Assembly (NCBI GenBank): GCA_022925895.1
Contig: JAKSYS010000731.1
Location: 1-29,534, forward strand
Direction of reading: 5' to 3'
Source: Fragilaria crotonensis
Taxonomy: Eukaryota; Bacillariophyta; Fragilariophyceae; Fragilariales; Fragilariaceae
Length of the DNA stretch: 29,534 nucleotides
The notes under the pieces are model-generated. The model made no database searches and was not told the origin of the DNA. It was given only the letters and a program-made list of their open reading frames with translations. Shown one piece after another: positions 2,733-25,253 of this stretch. Within the stretch, counting starts at the first letter, position 1; each line of letters begins with the position of its first letter. The translations under genes were made by a program, and so were the position numbers.

Positions 2733-5700
2733 ATGATGCGCCACACTACGACAGGTACAGCGTTGCTGTTCCTTGCATTGACTGCAGCGAGTTGTGCTGA
2801 TGTGAGTGCCGACTATTTTCAGTCACGACTCTAATGACAGATTACCTGGGTTTTGGTGTTCGAGCTGTGACGCCGATGAGAGATGAGACACACACAAGCC
2901 TCATCATGAGTGTAACGCTTGTTTATTTTGACGATTGTCCAACATGTTCAACTGGTCAAGGTGTCAATACGAACATGGATCGCTCTGTCCTCCCCAATTT
3001 AATGACTAACCGTTCATTCGTGTCCCACCTCCAAGGCTGCTGCTACTGCCGAGTTGCCTGTGAAATACGTTTACGATAAATGTCCCGAGGGAGCCGACCC
3101 TGACGACTGTCCAGTGCCCCGCTTCAAACCATGTCTTGCTTCCTGAGGAATCCGAGTGTGGGAAGGGGAAAGATCGCAGGATGATGCTAAGCAAATCGGA
3201 ACTGGCGGAGCGACACCTGCAACTCTTCGGTGGCCCTAAACCACTTCCGAAGCAATTCGAGATTAATGACGATGACACGCCAGCCACTCCCGTACAATAA
3301 ACCGTGCTACAGTCCTACCAGGAATGATCTTGCCGAATCCTGGACCAAGTGGGTGGCTGACGAAGATGCGTCCGTGGTCCTGGATCTTAGTTTTCCATTC
3401 GAATTCTTCGGATCAACATACAACACTACCTACATCAACGACAACGGATTTATCACCTTCAGGAACACCTTTCGCAACACCTACCAGCCAGTTTCCCTTC
3501 CTTCTGGTTTGACGACTCCCATGATTGCTCCTTTCTGGGCTGACGGCGAGGTTGCTGGAAACGGTGGGCGAGGAAACATCTGGTACAAGGACTTTGGTGA
3601 TAAGCTTTCAGTTATTTGGGACGAGGTTGGTTACTATGCCGAGGCTGATACAAAGGCTACGACCCACAACTCCTTCCAGCTTGTCATCTCCAAGGCCCAG
3701 GACTTGACGGAGGATATGAATAACATTTGCTTCTGTTACCTCGACATGGGGTGGACTCACGGTGACAAGGACGGCGTCAATGGCTTTGAAAAAAACCCAC
3801 GCGTTGGTCGGAGTCGGGCTGCGACGGTCGGGATAACGAGAGGTTTGGCTGGTAAGTTGCGGTCCAACCCCTGAACTGTCGTTTGGTTCACATGGGTCTG
3901 CAAAATGCTAACGTTCAAGCCAACCGTTTTTTATTCCTCGCCCTTTTCCAAGATCCCTTCGGCACCACATCGTATGCACAGATCGGTCGTTTCAACACCA
4001 GCGGAACTATCTTCAACGGAGTTAGAGTTCCAAGCGGAGTTGATTGGCTGGATTTCTTGGGATCTATCCAGATCCTGAACGCCCGTATGGGTTTCTGCTT
4101 CAACTCTGGTCCCAACATGCCTCCTGTCTTTAAGGGCGGCCCAACGGATGGAATCATGAGAATCCCGTGCGGAAGCAACCTTAAGGAATACAAGGTACGT
4201 CAGTGTGTGCATTTTTGACACCGTCATGATCGACACCTTGTTGTTCTTCGTAGAATGCTAACAATGGCTGAACGTCAATGCCTGTTGAACAGGTCTACTT
4301 TGGGGCTCCGGAATTTGATCAGACTCTGACTTGGGAAATCCTTGAAGAACCAGATGTAACACCAATCGGGTTTTGGCCTCTATTGACGGTGATGGTTCTC
4401 CTTCTGATACGATTGGACTGCGCTTTGAGTGGCTCACTGTTGACTTTGGTACCTATGGAGGGAAAACATTCGATTTCACGTTTCAAATCTGTGATAGCGT
4501 CAATCCTCCTGCTTGCGTCACGCGAACCATCTCATTTGTTTTGGAGAGTGCGGAACTGCCAATGGCGGCACCTGTATCCTGGAGAAGTGCACTCCCATAA
4601 AGGATACTGCATGCGCTGCGGACGTTGGCCCTAAGTGCACTCCCTGGCTTTCTGATCAACATTGCGAAGCTCCATTTGCCTTCCCAGCAATGCTTGTCTC
4701 CGGTCGCTATCCAATCATCAGGGATTCTCTCCGTGGCAACTTCGACGTACTTGGCGAAGATGGTTGGTGGTTCCACTACACTGACGATCGCGCTGGTGCC
4801 TATACCTTCACGCGCGACATGGGCGAAGCTGCCCCCGACCCCCGAGCTTTTGTGTTGTCTCACTTCGGTGAATCAGCTTCTGTGATCTGCTGGTGACCCG
4901 TCGTCGTCTTTGTGCTTCGGCAGTGCTCTGGCTTGGACCACTCCAGTCGTTATTCGGGCCGAGGGTCACCACGGCGGAACAGGCGTGTTCGTCTTGCCAT
5001 CCGGTCTGGACATCTCAGGCGGTCCAACTCCGGAGTGGGCAGTTGGCGCTGGTTCGATCAACCTGACTCAGATTCGCAACTATTTAAACAGTCTCAGTCC
5101 TACTCCGACGAAGATCCTTGTTGAGAAGTTTGTTGCGGGCTCAGGATCTGGAGCAACGGCAACCCTTCCTAACGAATACAAGTTCCAAGTGTTCGTTGGA
5201 AAGATCGGTTCGATTTCGGCATTCCTTAATCCTGGCAAGCCTTGTGCGTGTTACGGGGAGCAGTACAGTGAAAACTGGAAGTGTCTTCACAAGTATGGCT
5301 GCTTCAAGGATCAATTGCCCTTCGGCAAGAAGACCGGCAAATGCTACACGATCGACTTTGCAGATGGCGTTGAAAAATCCAAAACAACCTCAGTAAGGGG
5401 CTTGGACTTGTGCGGTCCAGCTCCTCCACCCAAAACGTGCCTCTTTAACAAGATGAAGGCCATTGCCAAAGCGTTGTCTGCCAAGCTCGGAGTGTACGTA
5501 CGCATCGACATGTTTGTGACGGACAAGAATGAGATCTACATGCAGGAATACACCTTCAACAACCACTTGGGAGGTACAAAACACTGTGCTGCCAAAAAGG
5601 ATGACGTGACTGGATGCATCGACTCGTGTTTCCTAGGAAATCTGTAGTCCGAGAATGGGGGTGATCCCGAAATGGGTTGCCCCAAGACTGCACGGCCCTC

Positions 5701-5797
5701 TGTCTTTGACGCAGGATACGGATCCCTCTCCGACGCGGCGCAATGCAGTGCTGCCATGGGACAGGCACCAATAACGGCTCTTCCGGCATGTTTCTAG
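2733..5797 (+). pseudogene. NIDO/ATP-grasp secreted protein, degenerate upstream copy
   Basis: This is a diverged tandem duplicate of the gene at 7407-10659, in the same orientation, with introns in the same three places. Inferred exons are 2733-2801 (signal peptide, TALLFLALTAASCA), 3036-3851, 3953-4194 and 4293-5797; intron borders are GTGAGT, GTAAGT and GTACGT donors with AG acceptors. Exon 3 is intact and has exactly the same length (242 nt) as in the other copy. Compared with that copy, the frame is lost near 3148 and 3285 (each fits one extra base), 4374 (one base missing), 4540 and 4830. In-frame stops occur at 4883-4885 (TGA where the paralogue has Gly) and 5645-5647 (TAG where the paralogue has Trp). 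The NIDO core (IAPFWAD, NSFQLVIS, CYLDMGWTHGD) and the ATP-grasp motifs (GHHGGTGVFVLPSG, EYKFQVFVGKIG, YVRIDMFV) are still readable. Some frameshifts could be sequencing errors, but the two substitutions to stop argue for a true pseudogene. Confidence 0.8.
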
Positions 5798-7406: not shown

Positions 7407-10400
7407 ATGACAATGAGCATGAAGCTTCATTTCGCCTTGAGCGTCATCTCTGTCATCGCTTTGGCTGTTGGAGCCAATGTGGACAGCACAGCTGTAAGAC
7501 ATATGCCTTTCGTTGAAAACTGTTTGAATTGTTCAATTTTGATGGTATTGAGTATAGCGTCAATTTGTTAGTTGTCGCTGGCGCGATGACGACTACCGCA
7601 ACGCAACGCTTCCACTTTACTCAAGCGCATTGTTTACGAGAACAAACGTATATTCTCTCGAGATTGGGCCAGAGGTTTCAGGTTACAAAGGAAGCAGTTC
7701 GATGGCTTCGCTAATGTGAAAAACGACCAGTGTACATGTTACCCAAGTACGGAGTACTGGAGTTTACTTGTTTGCTATTTGATCACGAGTTATGGAATAC
7801 AATTGCTCCGTTTTGCTTTATAGGTTTTCTGCCGGTAGACCATCGCCCTTCTGCATGTCCTGCACTCCGTACACAAACCTAACACAATTCTTCTTTTGCA
7901 GGAACGCAAACTTCAAACAGTGCCTCAATTCAAGTATGTTGCATGTCCTGCGAAAGCTGATCCAGCGGATTGTCCCGTCCCGAATTATGCTCCGTGCAGT
8001 CCTGAGGAAACGGCTTGCGACGAACCAAAAGTTCGCCGACAGTTGGCTCCTGAAGTAGAAGAGGCGCGTCGCCTTCAACTCTTTGGTGGTACTAAACCAG
8101 TTCCGAAGCAGTTTGAGATTCTTGACGATGATGAGCCTTTCCCCTACGATCAGCCTTGCTACAGCCCCTCCAGAAATGATCTTACCGATTCCTGGACGAA
8201 GTGGGTTGCTGCTGAGGATGAGTCTGTGGAAGTTAATCTCAAATTCAATTTTTCGTTCTTTGGATCCACGTACAACAAGACTTTTGTCAGCGATAACGGA
8301 TTCCTCTCTTTCAGAAACACATTCAGAGATAATTACCAACCAGCATCCTTGCCATCTGGTTTGTCAACTCCCATCATCGCTCCATTCTGGGCCGACGCCG
8401 AGGTTGCTGGAAACGGTGGGATCGGTAACATTTGGTTCAAGGACTTTGGTGACAAATTCGCAGTCATTTGGGACGAAGTCGGTTATTTCTCTGACACCAC
8501 ACCCAAGTCGCACAACTCCTTCCAGGTAGTCATCTCCAACAAGCAGGATTTCCCAGACATTAATAACATTTGCTTTTGCTACCTTGACATGGGATGGACT
8601 CACGGCGATCGAGATGGAGTTAATGGCTTTGAAATTGTCCCACGCGTTGGTGCTAGTCGCGCTGCCACAGTCGGAATTTCAAGGGGGTTTGCTGGTAAGT
8701 GTGCTAAGTGTAACAGAACATTCTGACATTCGCATCGTCGCCGATGTTATCGAGTCTCTACCAATTTGTGATTCTGCAATCCCTCTCACACGTTTGCTTG
8801 AACGTTGCTGTTCTTGTCTGCTGCAGATCCCTTTGGCACCACGACGTATGCCCAGATCGGACGCTTCAACACCAGCGGAACTATTCATAACGGAGTAAGG
8901 GTTCCAAGTGGAGTCGATTGGCTAGATTTCCTCGGTTCTACCAAGATCCTCAATGCCCGCACCGGGTTCTGCTTCAACTCTGGTCAAAATATGCCTCCTG
9001 TCTTCAAGGCAGGCCCCACGAATGGTACCATCACGATCCCTTGTGGTAGCGAGCTCGATGAGTACAAGGTATGGCCTTCAAAATGATCTTCGCCTGCCTT
9101 TTTTTGTCTTTCCAAACCTCCACTCTCCTCGGATCTTTTCCTTACCATTTGCTTCCTGCCATTGCCTCTTCCAGGTGTATTTTGGAGCTCCTGAGTTTGA
9201 TCAAACTCTGACATGGGAGGTTCTCTCCGAGCCTGCGGTGACCCCACCTGGCTTTATTGCCACCGTTGACGGCGATGGAATCCCAGATGATACCGTTGGT
9301 ATCCGCTTCCAGTACCTTAACCCTGACTTTGCCACGTACGGCGGCCAATGGTTCAATTTCACCTTCAAGGCGTGCGACAATGTCAACCCCCCAGCCTGCA
9401 CCATCGCAACCGTCGCTATCCAAATTGGGGTTTGTGGGGCTGTTGACTGCGATCCAGAAAAATGTGTCCCAATCACTGACAGCCAGTGTGTTGCCGATGT
9501 TGGTCCAGTTTGCACTCCGTTCCTGTCTGGCGAGCACTGTGACCCTCAGTACTCCTTCCCAATGCTGATCTCTGCTCGTTACCCCAACATCAAGGAGTCC
9601 TTACGCGGTCCCACGGATGTCCTCGGAGACGCAGGCTGGTGGTACCATTACACGGATGACCGTGCTGGAGGCTACTCGTTTACTCGTGCGAGTGGCGAGG
9701 CCGCACCACCGCTTCTCTGCTGTGTGACTACTGTGGACCAACTTTTGGGACCCGTTGGTAACCCTTCGTTATCGTCGTGCTTCGATGGTACTCCGGCCTG
9801 GACAAGTCCGGTTGTCATTCGTGCTGAGGGTCACCACGGCGGAACGGGTGTGTTCGTCTTGCCATCTGGCTTGAACATATCCGGCGGTCCTACTCCCGAG
9901 TTGGCGGTCGGCGCTGGTTCCATCACCCTGGCTCAGATTCGCACTTATTTGAACAGTCTCACTCCCACTCCAACCAAGATCCTGGTGGAGACGTTCATCG
10001 CAGGCTCGGGATCAGGAGCAACTGCCACCCTTCCTAACGAGTACAAGTTCCACATGTTCAATGGAAAGATCGGTTCGATTTCTGCATTCCTGAACCCTGG
10101 CAAGCCGTGCGCCTGTTACGGAGAGTACGACGAAGACTGGCAATGCCTCCACAAGTACGGGTGCTTCAAGACTCAAATGCCGTTCGGTACTATGCATGAT
10201 TCCTGCTACGAGGTTGACTTCCCTGACGTTGGTGGACCAGTTGTAACCACCTCTGTGAAGGGCTTTGACTTGTGTGGCCCTGTCCCTTCGCCTCCACCTT
10301 GTCTCTTCAACAAGATGAAGGCCATTGCCAAAAAGCTGTCGTTGCTGATTGGGGTGTACGTACGCATCGACATGTTTGTTACGGCCAACAATGAGATCTA

Positions 10401-10659
10401 CGTGCAGGAGTACACATTCAACCATCTTGGTGGCACCAAGCACTGCGCATCGAGACTTGATTTCGATTGCGTTGATTCATGCATCCTCGGACGTTATTGG
10501 TACGATGCGGGAACCACCAATGAACAGCGCGCTCAGGGAGGTCCCAACAAACCCAGACCCTCTGCGTTCCCTGCCAACTACGGCAGCTTGTCGGATTCAG
10601 CCCAATGCACAAGTGCCTTGGCGTACTCGCCACTCCTTGCCGTCAAGGCATGCAGCTGA
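7407..10659 (+). CDS. Secreted NIDO-domain/TupA-like ATP-grasp fusion protein
   Basis: Four exons, 7407-7493, 7902-8694, 8827-9068 and 9175-10659 (intron phases 0, 1, 0; donors GTAAGA, GTAAGT, GTATGG), give 868 residues with no break. ATGs at 7407, 7413 and 7419 are in frame; the first is taken. Residues 1-22 form a signal peptide (LHFALSVISVIALAVGA). A NIDO domain spans about 145-293 (FFGSTYN, IAPFWAD, NSFQVVIS, FCYLDMGWTHGD, RAATVGISRG). Residues about 345-460 (NMPPVF...DGDG...) look like an Ig/cadherin-type beta domain. A six-cysteine module follows (C461-C496), then an ATP-grasp-like domain at about 509-794: GHHGGTGVFVL (glycine-rich nucleotide loop), KILVETF, EYKFHMFNGKIGSI, RIDMFV and EIYVQEYTFNHLGG, matching the motif order of TupA-like ATP-grasp proteins. 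At least six N-glycosylation sequons support passage through the secretory route. The substrate is unknown: ATP-grasp enzymes form acid-amine or acid-thiol bonds, but activity outside the cytosol would be unusual. The degenerate duplicate lies upstream. Confidence 0.85.
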
Positions 10660-16077: not shown

Positions 16078-16198
16078 AACAGGCAACCAAGAAAGATATC
16101 ATCTCAAAATGACGCATTGTTGCTGCCAACACCTTGACGTAGGGCTATTGCTTGCGCAAGTGACATTTGTTGACTTCTGATTCATCTTACATATCAAG

Positions 16199-17945
16199 AT
16201 GAGCAGGAGATTCACTGAATCACTGAAGAAGAAGATTACTGTGGTGAACCAGGTCATTTTTAAAACAAGCAGAGATTTGGGACCAAGCGATCCATGCCCA
16301 ATTGACGAATCTGACTGTTACAATGAAGAAGGTTCTTTCAATCTTATTCAGTATGAAGAATACATCAAACGAGAGGAAGAGGAGGCTGTCTTCAAGAGAA
16401 ATGTTCGCTTTCTCACGTTGCTGGTGCAGTTGTTTGAATATTCCAGAAGAAGGAGAAAGGCAAAGGCTGTTCGTCGACATATACTAAAACCCCCCGTGAA
16501 GCGAGCTCGAATCCGCCATCCAAAATTCTTTACGGATCCAGCAACTGGGGTTCTTCACTCAGTCACACCAAGAGTTAGTCTTTGGTGGATTCTATACATT
16601 CAAGATCCAAAACCTGAGAATGCTCAGTGGTCCAAGACATTCAGAAGGCGACTTCGATTGCCGTATGAATCGTATCTCAAGTTGCTTCAGATGGTCAACG
16701 ATGAAAAAGATGATCCTAGTGATTGCTTTTTCCGATGGTTAGAGTCTGGAGTCTCAAACAGGAAAGTCAGTCCTATAGAGCTCTTAGTGTTGGGCTGTTT
16801 GCGCTATCTTGGTAGGGGTTGGACATTCGATGATATTGAGGAGTCGACATTCATTAACAAGGACGTCCAATGGGTTTTCTTTCACAAGTTTGTGGAGTTT
16901 GGAGCCACGAAACTCTACCGAAAGTACGTGTCGGCGCCATCAACTTTGGAAGAATTACGAGACTGTGAGTCGGAGTATCAGAGCGCTGGTTTCCCGGGTT
17001 GCTTGCATTGGAAGTACCGATGCAACACACGTTCCACTGGAGAAGGTTTCATATGGCTTGAGGCAGGCTCATCTTGGATACAAAATGTCGACTACCACTC
17101 GTACCTATAACTTGACCGTTAATCACCGTCGCAAGATCTTGCACACTACAGCAGGGCACCCAGGTTGGTCGAATGACAAAACGCTTGTACGCTTTGACTC
17201 CTTTATGAATCAACTCAGAGATGGTGAGTTCAACTCCTCCATGTCGTTCGTCTTGTCGACTAAAGATGGAAGAGACGTCACTATGAAAGGTGCATACATC
17301 ATCGTTGACAACGGTTACCATAATTGATCAACTACAGTGCCGCCTCTCAAAAATTCGATGAATCGAGCTGAGATCAGATTTTCACAATGGTCAGAGTCTT
17401 CGCGAAAGGACGTCGAGTGCACCTTCGGAATTCTGAAAGGTCGGTGGAGAGTCCTAAAACAGGTATAAGAATGCACAATACTGAAATTGCCGACAACATT
17501 TGGATGACGTATTGTGCGCTTCACAACATGCTACTTGACGTTGATGGACTAAGTGTTGGGTGGAACAATGGAGTGCCATCGCAATGGGAGTTGGACGATG
17601 GCAAATTTGATGAAAGTGATCTTCCTGATTCTATCCGTCCTCGGCTGATTAACCCAAGCAAATGAAGTATTACGAGCCTGTACATACGATGGGAGCTCGT
17701 TTGGATACCAGCATGAACAAGGGGATATGAATGATGGCGAGAATTGCGACGAAAATATTGAAAGCGAAGTTCAATTTAGCGATGTCGTTGGAGACCGGAC
17801 TGCAGTAAGTGAGATTTCATTGAAGGTACTTCGATCAATTCTTATTGGGCATATTGATGTTTCCTTCCAAAACAACAAGGTTGTATGGCCGACAAGACTT
17901 GCATTGAAACCTCGACATGTTCCAAGGACAGTGATTGACAAGTAA
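16199..17945 (+). pseudogene. PIF/Harbinger-type DDE transposase, decayed
   Basis: The reading frame starts with MSRRFTESLKKK. The catalytic triad is readable across frames: D1 in IGSTDATHV (codon 17019), D2 in IVDNGYH (17307) and E in VECTFGILKGRW (17415), a DD36E arrangement typical of Harbinger transposases. The region ahead of it (SPIELLVLGCLRYLGRGWTFDDI) is the helix-turn-helix part of the DDE_4 family. Lesions: a 4-base tandem duplication TTGC-TTGC at 16999-17006; TGA at 17325-17327 where Trp is expected; a missing base in the A run near 17457; and one extra base near 17660. After the last lesion the frame runs to TAA at 17943-17945. The element is therefore non-autonomous in this copy, though the triad itself is intact. 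Confidence 0.8.
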
Positions 17946-17999
17946 AATCGTAGTTAAGACCAGTACGACATCTTCCTAATTATAATTAGTTCAACTTCA

Positions 18000-19871
18000 T
18001 CAAAGAATTGCAGTAGAACCGCCATAATCTTCGTCGTCGGATTCTTCGTAACATGCGGCGCGAAACTTTTCTTGCTTGTTGACGCTTTCGGCGTCAAAAC
18101 AGTCTTGACACCACCATGACATTTCCAATTTCCTCTTCTCCGAGCAACAAATGGTGCAGACGTATTGCTTGCATTTGTGGCACTTGTAAGTAGTGTTGAC
18201 GGAGCATTCAGCACAGACCAGCCAGGTCCATTCGTTGTGTTGTTGGAGAAGTCTCCACATGTGATTGTGCTACCGCTGTCGTCGGTGGCTGAAATGCAAC
18301 AGCAACAACAGACATCGGAGGTTCTGTAGAAAAATCATTCTCCTCTTCAACGTTGGGATGCTTGTCAACAACTTTCACTTGTTTGTTGTGATGCTCCATA
18401 ATGTTGTTCTCATCGAGTTTGCGTTGGTGCTGCCTGAGCATCGCATTTCGTCTTTCAATTTCCTCTTCTTGTATTTTCTTCAAATTTGTCTCAAGCAGCA
18501 AAATACGTCGTTCGTGCTCATCCATAATTTGTTTCACCTCATTGGCTGCTCGTCCTTCCTTCAGTCGGCAGTAATCCGAATGCAACCGGTCACTTTTCCG
18601 AGTCAGGGAGGCAATCTCATCCCTCACCATACAAATCTCAATGCTTCTCTGTTTCTGAAGTTCTTTTTCCAAAAACTCGTACTGAAACAACTCCATTGTC
18701 TGCGTCATAAATAAAAAGCTTTTCTCATCGGCGGCGGTGTCTTCTGTTGGAGTTGGAGATGCGAGTCCGCTAGATGCCAGCCAGTCCGCTAGATTCTGAA
18801 ACCTGTCGCTTCCTTCCAGAACGAGAACGCGACACAGACGTTTCCAAAACTTCACAAGGTTTCTTCATTCCTCCTGATTTCATTGCTCTGCGCGAATTGA
18901 TATTTCTTCCAAATGCTGTGTCAGTTTTTGCTTCCGTAAACAGCGAGGACTTCATCATCGCACCGTCTTGGATCGGGAGGTGACCCCAAAGAGACCATGC
19001 GAGAAATCCCTTGAAAAAGTAATTGTGAGGGACCGGTGCTGTGACGTCAGATTCATCAGCACCTTGTAGGATTGCGCTATCCGTAGACGTTGATGTAGAT
19101 TCCCTTTGTTCAATGTTGTTATTATTTCTGTTACTACCGGTTTCGGCATGAGACGTGATTAGTCTTCATATGGTGTGCCGCAGCAATGCTTTTAAAACAA
19201 ATAACCGCCCATGTGACTTACCTACTACAGCTGTTGCCTCCTCACGGAACATGGCACCAAGACACCAATTAAGATAGTCATCATAATTTGTTCCGGAAGG
19301 GATCGATGCAAAGTCTTTGTATGGCGATTGACTCGACATCACGAGTGCTTGCATCTTCTTATAATTCATCAGCACTTCCTTTGCGAGTTGAACCATTGTC
19401 CTCCCAGTAATAGGGGATTCATTGGTGAGTGACTTCTGGTAAAGCAGCCTCTTCTCAATTGAGGTATCTCCCACAAAAATGTGGATATTTCCTTGTCGGT
19501 GTAAATTTGGAGGAACTGTGAGAGTGGCCTCCAAAGTGGCGCTGAGATCAACTGCAGAAAGAGACCTTCCACCAGGCCCAGCAGATGCATACAATCCTTT
19601 GAACTTGTTCAGTCCAAGAAGAAATTGATCTGCATAACAGACAAATATCGTCGTCATCGTTGTCTCCAAAGCAAAGCTTCATCATGAGCTTTTCCATTAC
19701 AGGTTCAGTCATGGCAACACCGCCACCCGCAATCGAAGGCGAATCATAACAGGCAAAAGCGATGAGAGATTGAAACTCCATGAGGAGCTTCTTGCTGACA
19801 TTTGTCCCACCTGTACGACTCGCCTTCTTCGTTTTCCCAGTATGTGGCAATGATGGAGGTGGCTCCGACAT
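18000..19871 (-). pseudogene. Harbinger-associated accessory gene with coiled coil and zinc-binding tail, decayed
   Basis: Reading leftward from the ATG at 19871 (MSEPPPSLPHTGKTKKASR), fragments in successive frames build one protein. There is an N-terminal domain (KLLMEFQSLIAFACYDSPSIAGGG) and a middle domain (LSATLEATLTVPPNLHRQG... IPSGTNYDDYLNWCLGAMF). A probable intron begins with GTAAGT near 19222. A Ser/Thr-rich linker follows, then a coiled coil of about 100 residues at roughly 18390-18700 (FLEKELQKQR, ILLLETNLKKIQEEEIERR). The Cys-rich tail is CAECS-CHKCK-CTICC-CQDC, probably a treble-clef or B-box-like zinc site. The frame is lost near 19640, at 18764-18794 and near 18250. It lies 54 bases from the transposase stop, tail-to-tail. 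Harbinger elements usually carry a second DNA-binding protein; this could be its diatom counterpart, but no Myb/SANT motif is seen and the family is not one I recognise. Confidence 0.5.
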
Positions 19872-21737: not shown

Positions 21738-22563
21738 CTAACTTTCTGAATCCTTCGCGGGGCCAAAGACACCATCCAGAATGCGCTGATATTCGGCTTG
21801 ATGGACCTTTCCCATGCCCGTCGCGGGAGCAGCGCTCACCTGTCGACCGACGTAACGAACTCTCTTCTCGTTCTTGTTGATCTCGCGCGTCGCTGTCATG
21901 ACTCGTGGGTTGACGTAGGCAAAGGCACCCATATTCTTCGGCTCCTGCTGCGCCCAAACGATTTCCGCATTTGGGTATTTGACAGCGCTTTCAGCAACTC
22001 GATCAAAGGCAAACGGAGCAATTTGTTCGAGACGAACCAATGCAACATTGGTTATGCCACGTCGTTCTCTCTCCGTCAGCAACTCGTAGTAAATCTGCCC
22101 CGTGCAAAAGACGAGGGTTGTAACTTTCTCTGCATTTTGGACTATAACTTCATCAGTCTCATCCAAGACACGGTGAAATGTTGTTCCTGGAGCCATATCC
22201 TCCAACTTAGACACGCAGCGCTTGTTTCGGAGCAAATTCTTGGGCGATGCGACGATCAGTGGCTTGCGAAAGTCGCGATGAATCTGACGCCTCAAGCAGT
22301 GGAAGTAGTTCGCAGGCGTCGTGCAATTGACAATCTGCATGTTCGTCTTTTGGATCTGCATGCGCTCATCTTGAGCCATGGGAGGAACAAAATGTGGATC
22401 CTCGTCAACTTGCTGCAAGAATCGCTCGAGACGGCAAGAGGAATGTTCTGCACCTTGACCATCATATCCGTGAGGCAAAAGCATGACTAGACCAGACTGA
22501 CGGAGCCATTTGTCTTCTCCAGCGCTGATGAATTGGTCGATCATTGTTTGCGCGCCGTTCACA

Positions 22564-22594
<31 letters not shown>

Positions 22595-25153
22595 ATGCGT
22601 TGGGATTCTCCAGTGAGTATCCATGTTCAAAACCCAACACACCGAATTCGGATAGAATGGAGTTACGACAGGTGAATCCAGCTTGGTGGTCTGGTTTCAT
22701 TTGCTCAATGGGAGAGCTGGGATCCACCGACTTCGCAATATGATTGAGCGGAGCATACTCCAACTCGGTCTCTTGATCCTTGACCACTGCATGACGATGA
22801 GAAAAAGTACCTCGTTGGACGTCTTGACCAGTAATTCGCACGTGGTTTCCTTCTAGGAGAAGACTTCCAAACGCAAGCGCTTCCGCTGTTCCCCAGTCTA
22901 TGCCTTCGCCTTGTTCCGCCATTTCGCGTCGAGCTTGGAAAATCTTAGCCATTTGACGATGCAGCTTGAAATCTGGGGGGACGGTGCCGGCAACGATCCC
23001 AATCTTGCGCAAGATTTCAGTGTTGACGCCAGTGGGGCGAATTCTAGACATTTGTCTTGGCGACCTGAACGACTTCCACTTGGATGATAGCCAATCGTCT
23101 TCTTTCCTCTTGTAGGTCTTAGCGGCCTGCAAGTCGCTCTCGTAGGAATCCAAGGCGAACTGGCGGACTTCAGCGCATTCTTCCTTAGTCATGTCACCAG
23201 ATTCGATGAGACGCTTCTCAAAGACGTCAATGGTCGAAGGGTGCGACGAAATCTTACGATAAAGCTGAGGTTGCGTAAAGGCGGGTTGATCAATTCGTTG
23301 TGCCCATTACGTCGGTAGCAGACCATATCGATAATGACATCTGTGCCCCATTCATGACGATATTCCACTGCCGTTTCGAGGGCTGTCGAAACTGCAAGAG
23401 GGTCGTCTCCGTTGCAATGAAAGATAGGGCAGTTGAAGGCCTTCCCAATGTCAGACAGTAAGGCGTAGAACGAGAATGAATAGGGTTGGTTGTGAAGCCA
23501 ATTTGGTTGTTTACAATAACATGGATAGTCCCACCAACATTAAAATCGTCGACACCTGCCATCTGCATGGTTTCGTACACGATCCCCTGACCGGCAAACG
23601 CCGCGTCACCGTGTAACAGAATGGGCACGACATTGCGGACATCTTCTGGTCTGTACGTAGAACAAAGAGCAGTTGTTGTGTGAATCTGACGTTGCTATTG
23701 ATCGTTGCTTGCCGTGCGATTCAAGACTTGAGTCACCCTGCCTAAAGACACGTACCTGTTGCCACAGTAATATTGTTTTGCTCGAGCCTTACCCACAACC
23801 ACAGCATTGACGCATTCTAAATGACTTGGATTTGCCACCAAACTCAAATGAATTTTGCGTCCATCTGGATACGTCCTATCCATGCTCGATCCAAGATGGT
23901 ACTTGACATCACCGCTGACTGCCCACTCACCATCCGTCTTGAAATGCTCCGACAACTCATAATGTGTTCCCATGAATTCACTGAAGATCAGTGGCATGGG
24001 CTTGCGCATGACATTTGCCAAAATGTTCAAACGTCCTCGATGAGGCATGCCAATGACGAACGAATGGGCACCCAATTCGCTCGCCCGATCAATGGCATCT
24101 TTAAGTGCCGGAACGATGGCTTCACCACCATCCAAACCGAAACGTTTGGTGGTATTAAATTTCTGCGCCAAAAGTTTTCAAAGGTATCGGCGAAACAGAG
24201 GCGTTCGTAAATGTGCTGTTTCTTCTCTTGATCGTAAAAGAGCCAATGCGGTTTCTCGATGCGTTCTCGCATCCAATTAACCTTGTGCGGATCCCCAATG
24301 TGCATATATTCGACCCCAAGAGTGCCACAATATGTCTTGCGAAGTTCCTTGAGGATGAGGCGGAGAGTGGATTTCTGATTGGCCGACGCCAATTCTTCGA
24401 GATACCCCTTGTTGCCGCCGGTACTGGTGCCTTTGAAGTTGAGAGGGCGGTCCAAATCGATCTCTGAGAAGCCGTGGTGCTCGATTCCAAGCTGTTCTGG
24501 ATAACCGTCCTTATCGAGGTTGGCAACGTTTGATGGACGGAAGGGAAAGGAATCGCGAGTATGAATGCCCAGAGGATCAAGTTGGGCAGCCAAATGTCCA
24601 TGAACTTGATAGGCGCGGATCAAGTGCGAGATCCCAAGAGAATCTGAGGGTGCAGCGTCCTGTATCACGAGAGATGTGGAATGTGTGTAAGTGATGGGAT
24701 GTTACTAGAAAGTTGAAAGTGCGACCTATTGCAACGAACGTACCGCAACTTTCTGGCCGCGGCAGCAGTAGTAGGGTTTTGATAATCGGTCTCTTGAAAG
24801 GCCACGCCGTGCTCAAGATTATCGAAATACTTCTTCCAACTAGCGTGTACTGACGACGGATCCTGCTGATATTGTTCAAACATTTGTTCCGCGTAAACGG
24901 ACGAGGTTCCATTGAGGAAAGATTCTTGAACTCGTTCATGCGATTGCGACGCCGTGGAGAAGACTCGTCGACCCTGCGATCGTGTGTGTGATTGCATTGT
25001 ACGAGTAGTATTCGTACGGGACGTACCAGCGACTGTATTCACAAAGCTGCCACTGTTCATGGTTGACATGAATTTGCTCTTCTGCGAACAACATAGCACT
25101 TGCTGTTGCCACTGGCGGAATGCGGTCCGCAACAAAGCCGATTGAGGAGGCAT
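21738..25153 (-). CDS. OGDH: 2-oxoglutarate dehydrogenase E1 component, mitochondrial
   Basis: This thiamine-diphosphate enzyme decarboxylates 2-oxoglutarate and passes succinyl groups to the E2 subunit in the mitochondrial TCA cycle. Exons: 25153 to about 24740, 24659-23756 and 23650-21738, giving about 1077 residues. The first 70 residues are rich in Arg, Ser, Thr and Gln with few acids, fitting a transit peptide. Motifs follow in family order: [109 protein letters not shown]...[10 protein letters not shown] (diphosphate and Mg site); [13 protein letters not shown]. Intron 2 is clean (GTACGT...ACAG). The frame is broken by single missing bases at 24170-24173 (A4 instead of A5), about 23455 and about 23291, and the intron 1 phase does not fit its best donor. 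With no stop substitutions and all motifs kept, I favour sequencing or assembly errors over a pseudogene. Confidence 0.9.
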
Positions 25154-25253
25154 GTTGAGAGATCAAAAGCGTTGGATAGTGTCGCTGTGGTGTCGGAGTC
25201 AGTCGCCTGTGTGATGGAATTCTTGACCAACAGGTATGATCTCTGATGCACAA

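Follow-up and report, generated by a model that had tools for sequence, protein, structure and literature searches.

ATP-grasp ligases are usually cytosolic, and the D-Ala ligases among them, likewise cytosolic, carry ExN and not ExT in the last strand. In C. jejuni the TupA-like C-terminal domain of Cj1438 performs an ATP-driven amidation of capsule glucuronic acid with serinol phosphate or ethanolamine phosphate (PMC11800379); the family assignment of Cj1438 is taken from that source. In animals, C7orf58 is a secreted ATP-grasp protein of the tubulin-tyrosine ligase-like type, fused to a PC-esterase and with a predicted role in the modification of surface polymers (PMC2824669). In this study we analysed a stretch of 29,534 nucleotides from contig JAKSYS010000731.1 of Fragilaria crotonensis (hereafter the window), in which a gene at 7407-10659 on the forward strand encodes a predicted protein of 868 residues. 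The C-terminal third of this protein is, as judged by sequence comparison, a divergent ATP-grasp domain closest to the TupA-like amide ligases. The domain comprises residues 532-819 (9646-10509, forward strand), contains a Cys-rich insert and was delimited with a profile hidden Markov model, hhalign, a structural model and Foldseek.

Bacterial TupA domains were collected by a degenerate DNA pattern, which gave 22 loci. Six of them (L003, L009, L015, L016, L020, L022) were judged by eye to be non-TupA and were dropped; all 16 domains retained match PF14305. The profile built from these 16 domains scored 34.4 bits on the piece from this gene and 34.4 bits on the corresponding piece of a decayed tandem copy that lies in the same window (see below). 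Each score is the sum of two collinear stretches, which before correction reach 20.5 + 11.8 bits for the gene and 24.6 + 7.7 bits for the tandem copy. The best of 4000 shuffled sequences reached 5.4 bits. When all 289 open reading frames (ORFs) of at least 50 residues in the window were scored, the two genes ranked first with 34.4 and 32.9 bits and the next ORF reached 2.6 bits. Profile-profile comparison with hhalign resulted in a probability of 97.2% and an E value of 3.8e-11 over 135 columns, covering the hinge, the YKF..FNGK strands and the last two strands. With BLASTP an E value of 1e-6 was obtained against one Salisediminibacterium TupA, a value valid for that single comparison. The NCBIfam model of the D-Ala-D-Ser ligase VanC matched the tandem copy with E 1.9e-4, and a model related to VanC matched this gene with E 0.19. 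The likeness to the TupA-like ligases consists of the collinear motifs KIIIE, DYKF..FNGK, RVDxY and ExTF, the Asp/Glu pair of the metal site and the profile similarity. In the reverse direction, a profile made from the gene and its tandem copy found one match in 194 genomes (E 9.6e-4), the translation of which carries the TupA motifs RVDLY..IYFGELTF; this is a weak test, as the known TupA gene of genome G004 was missed. Separately, eleven viral contigs (L041-L051) with closely similar scores were found to carry TupA-like domains whose identity to the bacterial query is about 25-27%. Possibly these are phage-borne genes for glycan amidation.

Several results of the sequence searches weigh against the assignment. 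The Pfam model PF14305 scored 15.6 bits on exon 4, 17.5 bits on 9799-10656 and 16.2 bits on the tandem copy, all below its cut-off of 25, and was not listed for the whole 868-residue protein at E values up to 10. The significant matches span the region from the hinge onward and stop short of the strand-2/loop region (VVIRAEGHHGGTGV); the pairing of this region with FVIKCNHGxG comes from multiple alignment only, where it was identical in all six alignments. In searches of the PDB by sequence no ATP-grasp chain was found with this gene, and its own profile returned just two matches, both unrelated (E 0.38 and 1.5). The low PF14305 score identifies the domain as a divergent relative of the family and not as a member of it. 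The earlier note had read in this part the motif order of TupA-like ATP-grasp proteins; the homology stands on the TupA profile and on hhalign, whereas the PF14305 search it had suggested stayed under the cut-off.

A PDB search with the profile of TupA alone returned only Fis1 chains (E 0.5-0.8). With the profile of alignment A4, described below, nine weak matches were obtained, the best being PurK (E 0.042), together with D-Ala-D-Ala ligases (0.17-0.48) and two sulfotransferases (0.2). The gene found no direct relatives in phage, plasmid and viral-contig collections, nor did three pieces of it in PHROGs, and in the genome-contig collection none of the seven pattern matches was confirmed.

The predicted fold was obtained from AlphaFold. 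Five alignments (A3-A7) were built before one of them was folded, and A4 was picked because in it the TDDR motif of the gene pairs with the ADK motif of TupA. It contains 27 rows: one for this gene, two for pieces of the tandem copy (the short one partly misaligned), and in addition 15 bacterial TupA domains, L023 being excluded, and nine viral ones out of 19 viral loci. With A4 the model reached a mean predicted local distance difference test score (pLDDT) of 71.2 and a predicted template modelling score of 0.74; in the Cys-rich insert and beyond the last strand pLDDT stayed below 50. When this model was compared with the PDB by Foldseek, the best 50 of 749 matches (E up to 10) were all ATP-grasp proteins. 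At E values up to 0.001 there were 197 matches, the best with E 1.1e-6 and a probability of 1.00. Among those listed, D-Ala-D-Ala ligases and peptide ligases of the ATP-grasp type predominate. The D-Ala-D-Ala/D-Ala-D-Ser ligases are the best fold matches, in addition to the weak profile match of the tandem copy; the identity in the fold matches listed is about 9-15%. In a viral structure library the second-best match was named TupA-like ATPgrasp. The best match in that library was A0A481YV41, a protein of 617 residues from Marseillevirus LCMAC103 named HNH endonuclease (E 7.5e-10), which may contain an unannotated ATP-grasp domain.

The modelling also has its points against an ATP-grasp fold. 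AlphaFold failed on the gene sequence alone (pLDDT 31), and the TM-scores to the PDB structures were modest (0.35-0.45, with root-mean-square deviations of 5.6-11). Because TupA sequences were present in the alignment of the model, fold and homology are not independent. We concluded that the model supports, rather than independently proves, the ATP-grasp fold. Structure prediction and fold search of the C-terminal third had been named in the earlier note as the check that could overturn its reading, and both returned an ATP-grasp fold, from an alignment that held TupA sequences.

In the ATP-grasp superfamily positively charged residues, "typically" lysine, are found at two ATP sites, one before the RAGNYA domain and the other at the end of RAGNYA strand 2; an acidic residue is located in the fourth kinase-like strand, and the last strand carries ExN, where N is at times another polar residue (PMC4431377). 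We compared these positions in the alignments. Asp773 of RIDMF (10369-10371), a predicted metal ligand in strand 4, and Glu786 of QEYTF (10408-10410), the other predicted metal ligand, are conserved as D and E in the TupA rows of A4 (24/24) and in every row of the other alignments. The acidic residues near EIYVQEYTF, whose inspection the earlier note had proposed, are therefore intact. The last strand has the variant ExT with Thr788, as in 24/24 TupA rows of A4, and the hinge Glu is kept as in 23 of these rows.

The sites for the nucleotide are less well preserved, and here the alignments speak against an active ligase. The ATP-contacting lysine of strand 2 is K in all TupA rows of the six alignments and is replaced by Arg590 (9820-9822) in this gene, and by Arg also in the tandem copy. 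Arg590 does place a positive charge at the end of RAGNYA strand 2, and since the superfamily description asks for a positive charge, with lysine only "typically" present (PMC4431377), arginine can satisfy it. For the second ATP site, Arg537 of TDDR pairs with the ADK lysine in A4 alone (24/24); the pairing was absent from A3, A5, A6, A7 and the alignment of the 16-domain profile analysis. As A4 had been selected for the TDDR/ADK pairing, this pairing is not an independent finding. TDDR also occurs in the tandem copy, in the other of its pieces. With the pairing confined to A4, the second ATP-lysine site may be lost. In addition, about 15 residues before the hinge, around a nearly invariant TupA Glu, are absent. 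Overall it looks as if metal binding has been kept and the contacts to nucleotide and substrate have been altered.

These alterations are the basis of the main rival explanation, to which we assign a sizeable probability, though below that of an active enzyme: the protein could be a pseudoenzyme that has lost catalysis and uses a disulfide-stiffened ATP-grasp fold as a ligand- or glycan-binding or structural adhesion module. The exchange of the strand-2 lysine, the insecure position of the other ATP lysine, the loss of a conserved TupA stretch and the large Cys-rich insert all fit such a loss, and so does the presence of NIDO, an adhesion-type domain. In the C7orf58 family, the active site of the teleost and mollusc versions has likewise been considered disrupted (PMC2824669). 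The earlier note had set two readings side by side, ATP-dependent chemistry in the secretory pathway and reuse of the fold for ligand binding, and both are still in competition here, as ligase and as pseudoenzyme. Against a pseudoenzyme, Asp773, Glu786 and Thr788 are identical to all 24 TupA rows, and Arg590 retains the charge that the superfamily description requires (PMC4431377). An extracellular sensor or scavenger, which would bind ATP or another nucleotide without ligation, could be built on the same retained residues as the enzyme, and from its outside position would meet released ATP. Specific support for it was not obtained, and no such role is mentioned in the excerpts of PMC11800379, PMC2824669 and PMC4431377; we regard it as unlikely.

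We next considered where the domain would be located. The start codon and a hydrophobic leader (residues 1-29) lie in exon 1 (7407-7493), which is bordered by a GTAAGA donor. Among all 19-residue stretches of the protein, residues 7-25 are the most hydrophobic, with a mean Kyte-Doolittle value of 2.03. The protein has 32 Cys in total and six sequons, at residues 145, 154, 308, 359, 435 and 608. Six of the cysteines are clustered in residues 461-496 (9433-9540, coordinates derived from residue numbers). Cys makes up 13 of the 288 residues of the ATP-grasp domain (4.5%), compared with 1.9% across 24 TupA rows (2-6 Cys each), and the Cys-rich insert of the domain has no counterpart in the aligned TupA rows. 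All comparable Cys of the ATP-grasp part (11/11) are retained in the tandem copy. The Cys richness together with this conservation fits an oxidising compartment. From the leader, the cysteines and the sequons the protein appears to be secreted. ATP-using kinases of the Golgi lumen, such as FAM20C, are known, and catalysis is hence not barred by location alone.

Alternatively, the protein could be a type I membrane protein, with NIDO outside, a span at residues 448-466 and the ATP-grasp domain in the ATP-rich cytosol. The stretch 448-466 is indeed a second, marginal hydrophobic segment whose mean Kyte-Doolittle value of 1.66 lies about at the usual limit for a span. It is, however, situated between cysteines and followed by acidic residues, with no basic stop. 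In the matching piece of the tandem copy an arginine is present and the maximum is 0.91, so that the stretch is not conserved there. Moreover, the domain behind it is Cys-rich with conserved Cys, and carries the sequon at 608. The membrane-span reading, which we consider very unlikely, was put aside because the stretch is not conserved in the tandem copy and the domain downstream is Cys-rich and sequon-bearing.

The complete gene was assembled from four exons with GT..AG borders, which give a single open frame of 868 residues with a TGA stop at 10657-10659. Exon 2 (7902-8694) encodes a pro-region and the NIDO domain, with the best PF06119 stretch at residues 155-208 (8277-8438, again calculated from residue numbers). 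In the Pfam search of the whole protein PF06119 matched in two stretches with 46.2 bits (E 7.1e-12), above the cut-off of 25. No further Pfam domain above cut-off was found in the rest of the protein, including the linker. Exon 3 (8827-9068) continues the extracellular region without a Pfam match. Exon 4 (9175-10659) encodes the linker, the six-Cys stretch, the ATP-grasp domain and a C-terminal tail up to the stop. All these features are on the forward strand. The earlier note's spliced protein, leader, NIDO domain, six-cysteine module and several N-glycosylation sites were recovered in this way, and its five ATP-grasp motifs (HHGGTGVFVL, ILVETF, YKFHMFNGKI, RIDMF and EIYVQEYTF) are all found in exon 4.

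As the exon borders were drawn from sequence only, an adhesion gene and an ATP-grasp gene could have been wrongly merged. In the C-terminal half, exon 4 is 494 uninterrupted codons running from the linker through the ATP-grasp part, which places both on one mRNA, barring an unseen intron. The connection of NIDO to this part is predicted through splicing. The tandem copy, however, has the same order of parts and breaks at the same places. On account of this layout and of the shared open exon the artefact was put aside as very improbable.

The tandem copy is located at 2733-5794 on the forward strand and was found by tblastn within the window. It contains leader, NIDO, linker, six-Cys stretch and ATP-grasp domain in the same order as the gene. 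Its leader frame starts at 2733, and its NIDO piece matches PF06119 above the cut-off (E 2.9e-15), as in the gene. Over the aligned ATP-grasp piece the two are 75% identical. The tandem copy shifts frame several times and contains two or more in-frame stops, and it is apparently a decayed duplicate; single frame changes could be sequencing errors. To compare the two copies we used the ratio of non-synonymous to synonymous substitution rates (dN/dS). For the ATP-grasp part (232 codons) the ratio was 0.128 with NG86 and 0.141 with YN00; for the NIDO exon and exon 3, NG86 yielded 0.098 and 0.108. These values are rough, as dS was near or above 1; of the four segments compared, the linker/Cys one gave no dS, and the NIDO exon gave no value with YN00. 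The ratios indicate that the ATP-grasp part is under purifying selection. Since the tandem copy is decayed, the selection acted before its loss. A ratio of about 0.13 speaks against a pseudoenzyme, though a binding module under selection would look alike. The decay of one of two copies counts against the ligase, as it shows that the function can be lost. From the substitution ratios and the conserved cysteines we take the predicted ATP-grasp domain to be under selection and adapted to disulfides.

In our view the most likely reading, with a probability approaching one half, is an amide ligase that depends on ATP and has wall or surface polymers as its targets. The amidation of capsule glucuronic acid by Cj1438 provides the analogy for such a substrate, and the glycosyltransferase domains that accompany most of the bacterial TupA ORFs scanned (see below) agree with it. 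The front half, NIDO and linker, would serve as an extracellular adhesion or scaffold part. In the secretory pathway, with ATP present, the C-terminal domain would bind Mg-ATP via Asp773 and Glu786, while Arg590, and perhaps also Arg537, would replace the lysines that usually contact ATP. A carboxylate, such as that of a uronic acid in a wall or mucilage glycan or that of an acidic side chain, would be activated as an acyl phosphate and then joined to an amine, and the NIDO half would keep the enzyme or its product in the matrix. ATP binding, catalysis and a glycan substrate are thus what we infer for this domain. The check on Arg537 weakened the case for that residue but left our weighing of the explanations unchanged, because the weighing rests on Arg590, the metal site and the loss of the pre-hinge stretch.

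Compared with the TupA-like ligases, the domain described here falls below the Pfam cut-off, has Arg for Lys in strand 2, lacks the pre-hinge stretch and contains the Cys-rich insert. The surroundings differ as well: here the domain stands behind a leader and NIDO, whereas in bacteria glycosyltransferase domains above the Pfam cut-off were present in six of the eight TupA ORFs scanned out of the set of 16 (seven of the eight chosen for length), with L023 just below the cut-off and L007 without one. With C7orf58 the protein shares the combination of a secreted eukaryotic ATP-grasp domain with other domains, but the nearest relatives of C7orf58 are tubulin-tyrosine ligases and not TupA, its partner is an esterase and not NIDO, and it was described as animal-specific (PMC2824669). 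A secreted eukaryotic ATP-grasp protein has a precedent in C7orf58 (PMC2824669), with a different branch and a different partner here. The combination of NIDO and ATP-grasp was not found in the open-access literature surveyed, mostly by title and abstract listing, and the excerpts of PMC8383183 contain nothing on the family of this gene.

We tentatively suggest, at a probability clearly short of even, that the gene represents an independent second line of secreted eukaryotic ATP-grasp proteins: a TupA-derived amidoligase of bacterial or viral source, tethered by NIDO, that would draw on secretory-pathway ATP to introduce amide links into polymers of the wall or mucilage, with Arg for the strand-2 lysine. 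If true, a secreted relative of capsule amidoligases would point to a microbial eukaryote whose extracellular matrix contains polysaccharides with peptide or amide modifications. Such chemistry was only suggested for animals, in the 2010 description of C7orf58 (PMC2824669). The tandem duplicate and the conserved cysteines make the gene a defined target for expression and assay.

The window as a whole looks eukaryotic, with GT..AG introns and a 2-oxoglutarate dehydrogenase-like gene in pieces. Three further ORFs were without a Pfam match at E 0.01: a long one at 1258-2547 on the forward strand, by eye like the ribonuclease H region of a retroelement; a long one at 16181-17110 on the forward strand, by eye like a DDE-type transposase; and a short one at 17957-18334 on the reverse strand, with paired CxxC, which by eye resembles a FYVE/PHD-type zinc finger. 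The 2-oxoglutarate dehydrogenase E1-like gene is located at 21738-25162 on the reverse strand in several exons, with the N-terminal domain PF16078 at E 1.6e-19; its piece at 21741-23306 was 44.8-48.6% identical to the best 8 of 72 plasmid matches.

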